64,000 nt of DNA, from the NCBI GenBank assembly GCA_014584605.1, contig JACTMO010000080.1, forward strand, positions 62,001 through 126,000, in the 5' to 3' direction. The notes beneath the pieces were generated by a model, which saw nothing but the letters and a program-made list of their open reading frames with translations, made no database searches and had not been told where the DNA came from. The stretch is from Bacteroidota bacterium (GTDB lineage: Bacteria > Bacteroidota > Bacteroidia > Flavobacteriales_F > PHOS-HE28). The position numbers and the translations under genes are program-made. Shown in pieces: positions 8,270-12,639 of the stretch; position 1 is the stretch's first letter; each line of letters starts with the position of its first letter.

Positions 8270-8359
8270 GGAGAGGTGGCAGAGCGGTCGAATGCGGCGG
8301 TCTTGAAAACCGCTTTATCCGCAAGGGTAACGGGGGTTCGAATCCCTCCCTCTCCGCCA
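8270..8359 (+). tRNA. tRNA-Ser (UGA anticodon)
   Basis: The 90-nt sequence folds as a class II tRNA. The acceptor arm is GGAGAGG paired with CCTCTCC, the anticodon loop reads CTTGAAA with TGA flanked by the GCGGT/ACCGC stem, a long variable arm follows (about TTATCCGCAAGGGTAAC), and the T arm GGGGGTTCGAATCCCTC precedes discriminator G and an encoded CCA. A box TACCTTCG ends 9 nt upstream of the 5' end and is a plausible promoter -7 element. The 3' end is repeated downstream (see the repeat entries). Confidence 0.95.
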
Positions 8360-8406
8360 ACGCGGCCCGCGGAGCGGACGGACAAGCCGACCGGCGGATG
8401 GCCGGG
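8342..8406 (+). repeat. Direct repeat copy 1 (tRNA-Ser 3' end plus flank)
   Basis: This 65-base block covers the last 18 bases of tRNA-Ser including CCA, then 47 bases of flanking sequence. It recurs 151 bp downstream with three visible mismatches. Confidence 0.85.
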
Positions 8407-8492
8407 CCTGCCCGGGATCGGCCGCAGGTCGGCTTGGGCAAAGTCCGCGAAGCGGCTTCGCGTTGAAGCCTCCCCCAACGGGATGTCCTACC

Positions 8493-8557
8493 ATCCCTCC
8501 CTCTCCGCCAACGCGGCCCGCAGAGCGGGCGGACAGGCCGACCGGCGGATGGCCGGG
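8493..8557 (+). repeat. Direct repeat copy 2 (duplicated tRNA-Ser 3' end)
   Basis: The second copy of the block starting ATCCCTCCCTCTCCGCCA is not preceded by a tRNA body, so it is a 3'-end fragment only. It lies in the gene-free stretch 8360-8723, in which I see no gene, only these repeats and GC-rich low-complexity sequence. Such a fragment can be an attachment-site relic of an integrated element or a simple tandem duplication. Confidence 0.85.
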
Positions 8558-11721: not shown

Positions 11722-12639
11722 GTGGACTGGCCCCGTGCGCTGAACCTCTTCCGCACCCACCTGAGGCTGGAGCGCTCGCTGAGCGACCGCACGGTGGAGG
11801 CCTACCTCTCCGACCTTGCCAAGCTGCGGGCCTTCGCCGAAGGCCACGCACCGGTGCTGGCCCCCGATGCGCTCCGGCTGGAGGATCTGCAGGCCTTCCT
11901 CACCCACGCCGTGAAGCAAGGGATCGGTGCGCGCAGCCAGGCAAGGCTGCTGAGCGCCGTGCGCGCCTTCCACCACGCCCTCCTGCTCGACCGGCGGATC
12001 GACACGGACCCCACCGGATCGCTGGAGTCGCCCAGGCCCGGGTTGTACCTGCCCGAGTTCCTCAGTATCGCGGAGATCGACACCATCGTGGCCGCGATCG
12101 ACCTCTCCCGCCCCCTGGCGCACCGCGACCGGGCCATCGTGGAGACCCTGTACGGCTGTGGACTGCGTGTGAGCGAACTGTGCGGCCTGCGGATCAGCGA
12201 CATCCACGGGGCGGAGCGTTTCATCCGGGTGCTGGGCAAGGGCGACAAGGAGCGGCTGGTGCCCATCGCCCCCCACACGCTGAGCCGCATTGCGGATTAC
12301 CGCGACCACGAACGGGTCCGCCTGCCCGTGGCCGCCCGCGCCGGGGATGTGCTCTTCCTCAACGCCCGCGGCGGGCCGCTATCCCGTGTGGCCGTGTTCA
12401 ACCTGGTGAAGGCCCTGGCGGTGAAGGCCGGCATCCGCAAGTCCATCAGCCCGCACACCTTCCGGCACAGCTTCGCCACCCATCTGGTGGAAGGCGGGGC
12501 CGATCTGCGTGCGGTACAGGAGATGCTGGGGCATGCCAGCATCACCACCACCGAGATCTATACGCACCTGGACCGCGAATACCTGCGGAGCAACATCCTG
12601 CAGCACCATCCCCGCGCGCGGGGACGGACGGCCGGTTGA
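11722..12639 (+). CDS. xerD: Site-specific tyrosine recombinase XerD-like
   Basis: A 305-residue tyrosine recombinase with an N-terminal SAM-like core-binding domain (about residues 5-90: FRTHLRLERSLSDRTVEAYL) and a catalytic domain. Visible catalytic elements are the first Arg in YGCGLRVSELCGL, Lys in VLGKGDKERLVP, HTFRHSFATHL (H-x-x-R), the HAS segment of MLGHASITTTEIYTH, and the Tyr nucleophile in the latter. These, with length near 300, fit chromosome-dimer resolution at dif by XerC/XerD rather than a phage integrase. It starts with GTG. It abuts the convergent downstream gene with no spacer. Confidence 0.9.
   Translation: MDWPRALNLFRTHLRLERSLSDRTVEAYLSDLAKLRAFAEGHAPVLAPDALRLEDLQAFLTHAVKQGIGARSQARLLSAVRAFHHALLLDRRIDTDPTGSLESPRPGLYLPEFLSIAEIDTIVAAIDLSRPLAHRDRAIVETLYGCGLRVSELCGLRISDIHGAERFIRVLGKGDKERLVPIAPHTLSRIADYRDHERVRLPVAARAGDVLFLNARGGPLSRVAVFNLVKALAVKAGIRKSISPHTFRHSFATHLVEGGADLRAVQEMLGHASITTTEIYTHLDREYLRSNILQHHPRARGRTAG

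Follow-up and report, generated by a model that had tools for sequence, protein, structure and literature searches.

The repeat that follows the tRNA-Ser(UGA) gene in a 64,000-nt stretch of a Bacteroidota genome (contig JACTMO010000080.1, positions 62,001 to 126,000; this whole stretch is referred to below as the window) probably belongs, on balance, to a family of tRNA/tmRNA-trailer modules that is spread across the Bacteroidia and of which it is a single unit; that unit would have been duplicated in situ and would act on the tRNA transcript. The module family, its anatomy, its location and the self-specificity of its copies are well supported by comparison of sequences; we infer that its function is exercised at the level of RNA, through a terminator and a spare tRNA 3' strand carried on the transcript. 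By sequence, a unit measures ~150-180 nt and opens at the 3' terminus of its tRNA or tmRNA host, and the copy of that terminus includes CCA where CCA is encoded.

A repeat behind tRNA-Ser(UGA)

A preliminary description of this locus had reported a 65-base block repeated with three mismatches, the first copy opening with the final 18 nt of tRNA-Ser (ATCCCTCCCTCTCCGCCA). All of this is recovered: the direct repeat 8342-8406/8493-8557 is identical at 62 of 65 positions, its copies start 151 nt apart, and 86 nt lie between them, the same two distances as had been given. The longest exact direct repeat in the segment 8201-8700 is 29 nt long; the maximum in 200 dinucleotide-preserving shuffles was 14. 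The features of the locus are collected in Table 1. Unit 1 scores 94.7 bits (E 3e-17) against covariance model R2, which was built without the window's own unit, and it folds into the same architecture as the units of relatives.

Table 1. Features at and near the tRNA-Ser(UGA) gene, in window coordinates
Feature	Position	Strand	Basis or remark
tRNA-Ser(UGA), host gene	8270..8359	+	ARAGORN; Rfam tRNA
Own 3' end of the tRNA, copied downstream (T-stem 3' strand, acceptor 3' strand, discriminator, CCA)	8342..8359	+	
Repeat unit 1, 151 nt: structured trailer and tRNA-end copy	8359..8509	+	covariance model R2
Closing stem, 5' strand AACGC, pairs with 8460-8464	8359..8363	+	fold; covariation in relatives
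Hairpin H1	8365..8379	+	no T-run behind H1 in the window
Long hairpin, CAAGCCGACC...GGTCGGCTTG	8383..8436	+	fold; covariation in relatives
Hairpin H3, CCGC-GAA-GCGG	8445..8455	+	
Closing stem, 3' strand GCGTT	8460..8464	+	fold
Conserved linker GAAGCCTCCCCC	8465..8476	+	alignments
T-stem-mimic hairpin GGGATG-TCCTAC-CATCCC; 3' arm is the start of the copy	8480..8497	+	fold; host covariation in relatives
Exact copy of the tRNA 3' end	8493..8510	+	
Second unit, truncated start: 47 nt similar to the opening of unit 1, followed by unrelated DNA	8510..8557	+	
XerC/D-like tyrosine recombinase gene	11722-12639	+	syntenic with tRNA-Ser(UGA) in many relatives

Searching the window's own assembly with the 261-nt region returned four matches: the window locus itself and the genes for tRNA-Ser(CGA), tRNA-Ser(GGA) and tRNA-Ser(GCU). 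An exact 3'-end copy lies 150 nt downstream of tRNA-Ser(CGA), across a spacer whose sequence differs from the window's; a 3'-end copy was looked for behind the GGA and GCU genes of this genome and is absent. A 14-letter tRNA-end pattern, with one mismatch allowed, matches the genome nine times, six of these in tRNA-Ser ends or their copies. As to whether the block occurs elsewhere in the genome, a question that the preliminary description had raised, it is not dispersed, and its pattern is shared with tRNA-Ser(CGA), so that it is not unique either.

Tandem units in the genus

Of 58 genomes searched by DNA, many of the same genus carry one to three tandem units (~150-180 nt) behind tRNA-Ser. 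These units end in the last 17-18 nt of their own tRNA: the GGA variant of the end is carried behind the GGA gene in three loci (L057, L062, L180), and the Pro end behind tRNA-Pro(CGG) in another (L181). One array has three identical 152-nt units (L053); partial units terminate this array, that of L058 and the window's own. Among near relatives, the orthologous loci L084, L085, L087 and L088 are without a copy, and the copy in L086 is degraded. Model R2 finds the module in 37 of 45 genus genomes at E <= 0.01 (the order-level genome set consists of the same 45 genomes), and in 24 of the 30 genus genomes with at least 90% completeness and at most 5% contamination.

Some arrays depart from the simple tandem plan. 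Half-unit arrays (L173, L174, L175, L184, L197, L228) restart at the apex of the long hairpin, one 5' arm then facing several 3' arms, which suggests that duplications begin in hairpin loops. Two loci of one genome, G020, have units of 216 and 215 nt (L048, L060) with a second palindromic insert of ~55 nt inside the unit's last hairpin. Behind the Leu unit of a tRNA-Leu(GAG) gene (L207, G013:C9) stand three more Leu 3'-end copies, spaced at 92-96 nt by a different and shorter spacer.

Host genes across the Bacteroidia

In the class as a whole, model R2 matches 28 of 395 genomes at E <= 1e-4; of the 16 loci fetched at that stage from outside the genus, 14 lie directly behind tRNA-Ser and two near contig ends. 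A broader model, R3, built from 49 rows, matches 142 of 395 Bacteroidia genomes and 82 of 196 genera, and 23 of 395 genomes in a sample of the phylum, eight of them outside the class. (Families f96 and f101 of the phylum sample have the module outside the class. The host is tRNA-Ser in all 11 phylum-sample loci that were fetched: L270, L272-L276, L280, L285, L291, L294 and L355.)

Ninety-four non-genus loci were given to R3 and the top match of 93 was analysed, L298 being dropped as the same place as L267. In 79 of the 93 matches a same-strand tRNA ends 0-14 nt before the module begins, and the hosts span 12 amino-acid types: Ser (48), Pro (11), Met (4), Cys, Lys and Val (3 each), Leu (2), and Gly, Glu, Asp, Arg and Gln (1 each). 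Four more lie behind a tmRNA called by ARAGORN (L314, L323, L327, L332). By reading of the sequence, two others have tmRNA-like ends upstream (L325, L335) and four stand behind tRNA-like 3' ends that ARAGORN leaves uncalled (L271, L281, L287, L299); of the remaining four, L320 lies behind another unit at the edge of a contig, and L289, L344 and L347 have no recognised tRNA or tmRNA upstream. With 79 of 93 matches behind tRNA and four behind called tmRNA, the dispersal away from one gene class that would mark a REP or MITE element is not what is found. Where the host belongs to a cluster of tRNA genes it is the last tRNA, in seven clusters of seven, with no tRNA in the 150 nt that follow.

The family is, apparently, an undescribed one for the trailers of tRNA and tmRNA in the Bacteroidia. 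Rfam 15, applied at gathering score to 24 loci, recognises tRNA only, plus RtT in E. coli, and no family matching the module; a scan of the window yields weak sub-threshold matches to sX4 and a plastid UTR, both overlapping the tRNA. The literature on rtT, tRNA repeats and fragments, leuZ, Bacteroidetes RNAs and integrases, in the portions consulted, does not describe the module family, which leaves its absence from print unproven.

A shared fold

Units of widely different sequence fold alike. From 5' to 3' the shared fold opens, directly at the tRNA 3' end, with one half of an outer stem, which encloses H1, a long hairpin and H3 before its other half closes it; a linker that resembles GAAGCCTCCCCC comes next, and then a last hairpin, with the beginning of the tRNA-end copy as its 3' arm. 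(The outer boxes of integron attC sites read GTTRRRY and RYYYAAC. An attC site was considered and rejected: the outer stem varies (AACGC, AAGCC, GATCGCC, AAAC) with its pairing kept, and the boxes are not conserved.)

An alignment of 14 units has standard pairs in 91.4% of its pair cells and double changes at 27 of 49 pairs; its double-change cells number 111, where shuffles have 38 +/- 5 and slid controls 17-29. Forty-nine structure-fitted rows give 673 such cells against 195 +/- 12. Of the 25 pairs in the helix of the long hairpin, 20 show double changes in relatives. (Some technical remarks on the alignments: the structure of alignment A1 was set by hand from folds, in place of a first RNAalifold structure; two alternative closed forms of the structure score alike; and alignment A3 includes one opposite-strand row, L044.)

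Is the pairing kept in DNA or in RNA? In a palindrome test that left out loci L084-L138 and L229, 89 of 150 trailers score at or above a cut-off of 18, as do none of 150 shuffles. The arms of the 89 trailers at the cut-off contain 89 G-U and 73 A-C oppositions, numbers that do not differ (p = 0.24) and that lend RNA no support, so that the pairing could persist at the level of DNA, or through template-switch repair of palindromes. In the same test purine-purine mismatches outnumber pyrimidine-pyrimidine ones by 425 to 66, at positions that share ancestry. This bias is strand-specific and points to the tRNA-sense strand, even if it is partly shared by descent.

The copied 3' end

At loci fetched for their resemblance to a query or model, so that these frequencies are not unbiased rates, a copy of the host's end with at most one mismatch in 14 is found behind 78 distinct tRNAs (62 Ser, 8 Pro, 4 Leu, 2 Lys, 1 Met, 1 Val; L229 alone was omitted from this count and from the T-stem tests below) and at three of six tmRNA-like loci (exact in L314 and L332, with one mismatch in L323). 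Spacing of the copies is mostly 145-216 nt. For 112 Ser genes (L084-L138 and L229 left out) the mismatches in 16 are distributed bimodally, 37 genes having none, seven having 1-3 and 68 having 4-8; no shuffle among 2240 fell below three. Eleven pairs of units with bodies less than 85% identical (mean 70.7%) have copies that differ at 14 of 352 positions, in a test that called a copy only at three mismatches or fewer and left out tRNA-Leu as well as the loci just named. The copy is not essential, because many loci have the module without it: 55 of the 79 tRNA-hosted matches show no copy at two mismatches or fewer in 16.

To the right of the copy, 25 of the 78 diverge at once at the annotated 3' boundary of the gene, and 26 carry on into a new unit over 14 nt or more. 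On its left, the Leu and Lys copies begin at the 3' strand of the T-stem; the letters before it are the unit's own, and the T-loop letters are unlike those of the tRNA. The AATCC shared in Ser and Pro would agree with a block of identity that reaches from a crossover in the T-loop as far as the end of the tRNA; the loop letters of Leu and Lys would not.

Just upstream of the copy, with helix letters chosen post hoc from folds, 55 of 78 loci have a complement to the word of their own copy (one loop and three stem letters), where shuffles average 6.7 and never exceed 16; an earlier choice of four letters performed less well (21 of 78, against 7.5 shuffled), and in a few rows (L149, L248, L308) the placement seems to be off by 2-3 nt. 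Where the stem begins otherwise than with CCC, the complement is there in 12 of 21 rows, a number that was reached in 0 of 1000 word swaps (mean 4.4). Because its letters covary with the host's copied word, the last hairpin tracks the identity of the host tRNA.

How the module may work, and what else it may be

tRNA trailers are usually treated as waste. Why, then, should a tRNA gene be followed by a structured replica of its own end? In the favored account, new units would arise on the spot through tandem duplication, with the AATCCC-like T-arm and a similar unit end as its two sites, and each copy would match its own gene because units duplicate where they stand. Tandem duplication had been named in the preliminary description as an alternative to insertion; it fits the multiplication of copies and misses the point that the unit is a conserved module. 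Hairpin H1 would be the operon's terminator: read as sequences, AT-rich relatives have H1 followed by a T-run, as expected of one. RNA that reads through would bring with it a T-arm-like hairpin bearing a spare tRNA 3' strand, and this strand might pair with the 5' acceptor strand of the tRNA or occupy tRNA 3'-end factors. Maturation or supply of the tRNA would be tuned as the outcome, and the structured trailer would be retained because its structure works. It tells against this account that H1 in the window has no T-run and that efficient termination at H1 would leave the copy seldom transcribed, as do the missing G-U excess and the many loci whose module has no copy.

One should set against this a reading in which the trailers are neutral, hairpin-prone DNA: template switching into loops (the T-loop, the hairpin apex) would multiply the units, palindrome-templated repair would maintain the pairing, and the exact copies would simply be young. 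This is possible, if doubtful. The partial units that end arrays, the three identical units of L053, the near-relative loci whose copy is missing or degraded, the lack of a G-U excess, and the resumption of five half-unit arrays (L173, L174, L175, L184, L197) at the long-hairpin apex are all to its liking. It deals less well with a position locked to tRNA and tmRNA 3' ends in many families, with the 25 of 78 copies that stop at the annotated gene boundary and have different DNA after it, with a T-stem mimic that covaries with its host, and with copies mismatched at only 14 of 352 positions between bodies that have diverged to 70.7% (a biased figure, copies being called at three mismatches or fewer).

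Rather unlikely, in our view, is that the module is "merely" a tRNA-operon terminator under selection, perhaps a bidirectional one, with the 3'-end copies as by-products. The H1 and T-run of AT-rich relatives and the position behind the last tRNA of all seven clusters accord with it, and, again as a reading of sequences, the complementary A-run ahead of H3 might act for the opposite strand; the conserved linker, the host-tracking T-stem mimic and the near-perfect copies are left unexplained.

A more exacting proposal, which we hold to be improbable, makes the read-through RNA a natural external guide sequence composed of a T-arm-like hairpin, the host's acceptor 3' strand and CCA. Such an RNA would pair in trans with RNAs carrying the tRNA 5' strand (GGAGAGG for Ser) and direct RNase P or tRNA 3'-end enzymes to them; if true, it would constitute a self-specific regulator for each tRNA or tmRNA.

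Integrases and islands

The preliminary description had seen in the repeat the classic trace of an integrase-mediated insertion whose element is gone, which would make the 3'-end copy a displaced attR. The 3' ends of tRNA and tmRNA genes are indeed integrase targets, and there is one clear case among relatives: a prophage sits at tRNA-Ser(GGA) in G007 (L230, G007:C108:13000-22000), its integrase gene directly behind the tRNA, and it has a tape-measure-like gene as well. Its presumed far end, an out-of-place TCCCTCTCTCTCCGCC, precedes a unit on another contig (L219, G007:C75), and L188 (G019:C5) has the same junction letters as L219. As an account of the repeats themselves, insertion nonetheless looks quite unlikely: 1) The interval between the copies is occupied by a conserved, covarying structure, which takes the same position behind many tRNA genes and behind tmRNA, in many families; the same block behind many other tRNAs had been named in advance as what would speak against insertion. 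2) The copy is the host gene's own end, the Leu and Lys copies start at the T-stem with different T-loop letters, unlike an identity block that spans a T-loop crossover, and the arms around the copy are variably spaced. 3) Integrase and cargo between tRNA and copy are found in none of the matches listed, and the gap in the window is 86 nt. 4) Among the PF00589 matches listed, compared by eye with the positions of arrays, none lies within ~10 kb of a genus array on the same contig, with three exceptions: the XerD-like gene, at a distance of 3.3 kb; the prophage of G007; and, on G062:C51, a partial match at ~9 kb.

An association of the module with the XerD-like gene (Table 1), 3.3 kb downstream, was considered and rejected; many relatives have the gene in synteny and other arrays have none beside them, and for these reasons it is read as housekeeping. 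Islands do use the 3' end of tRNA-Ser, but the repeats are in all probability neither islands nor the scars of islands.

That the extra 3' ends are decoy attachment sites in DNA, drawing integrases off the tRNA, is very improbable: tRNA and tmRNA are both classical integrase targets (PMC4383910, in the part consulted) and the att core inferred for the G007 prophage (L230/L219) falls on the very segment that is copied, but the copies have no T-arm-like core with a 7-nt loop, the spacing of the arms varies, and among the loci read no element is seen inserted in a copy.

Relation to known systems

A trailer module that is duplicated in place and may act on the tRNA transcript, the reading favored here, touches on several known systems. 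With Islander-type islands and prophages it has in common that a piece of the 3' end lies downstream of a tRNA or tmRNA gene that is itself intact; it differs in having a conserved non-coding structure between the copies instead of an integrase or cargo. REP and REPIN elements are likewise palindromic intergenic DNA (PMC3116915 and PMC3733652, in the parts consulted), but are dispersed, whereas matches to the module sit behind tRNA and tmRNA genes. The 3'ETS-leuZ of E. coli is, similarly, a tRNA precursor trailer, one with a regulatory role: RyhB interacts with it (PMC7154689, in the part consulted). That part does not describe 3'ETS-leuZ as carrying a copied tRNA end, a difference that is drawn from the description.

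The closest likeness is to the tyrT operon of E. coli K-12 (L229), in which three 178-nt units stand behind tyrV, each with an exact 19-nt end of tRNA-Tyr onto which a predicted hairpin pairs. The defining arrangement of RtT, a tandem unit behind a tRNA gene that ends in a copy of the gene's 3' end, is also that of the locus described here. RtT RNAs are released from the transcripts of tyrT and other tRNA operons and have effects on the stringent response (PMC4986893, in the part consulted). The differences are equally plain: the unit of tyrT has another architecture and contains the tpr reading frame, and the Bacteroidia module has mainly Ser hosts but extends to 12 tRNA types and tmRNA. The RtT model (RF00391) finds no match in the window's own genome, its E. 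coli control matching as it should; over 11 + 13 loci it matches in L229 only, and model R2 finds no match in L229. Because RtT is absent here and R2 is silent in E. coli, the likeness is one of design rather than of shown descent: on sequence grounds, this is a new tRNA-trailer module family, analogous to rtT.

A word of caution follows for the annotation of genomes: a displaced tRNA 3' end is not always the scar of an island, and copies of this kind should not be scored as tRNA fragments. If a whole class of bacteria keeps, behind tRNA and tmRNA genes, a structured module that replicates the 3' strand of each gene, then the tyrT/rtT of E. coli is one of at least two such solutions, and the poorly understood function of rtT becomes open to comparative testing.
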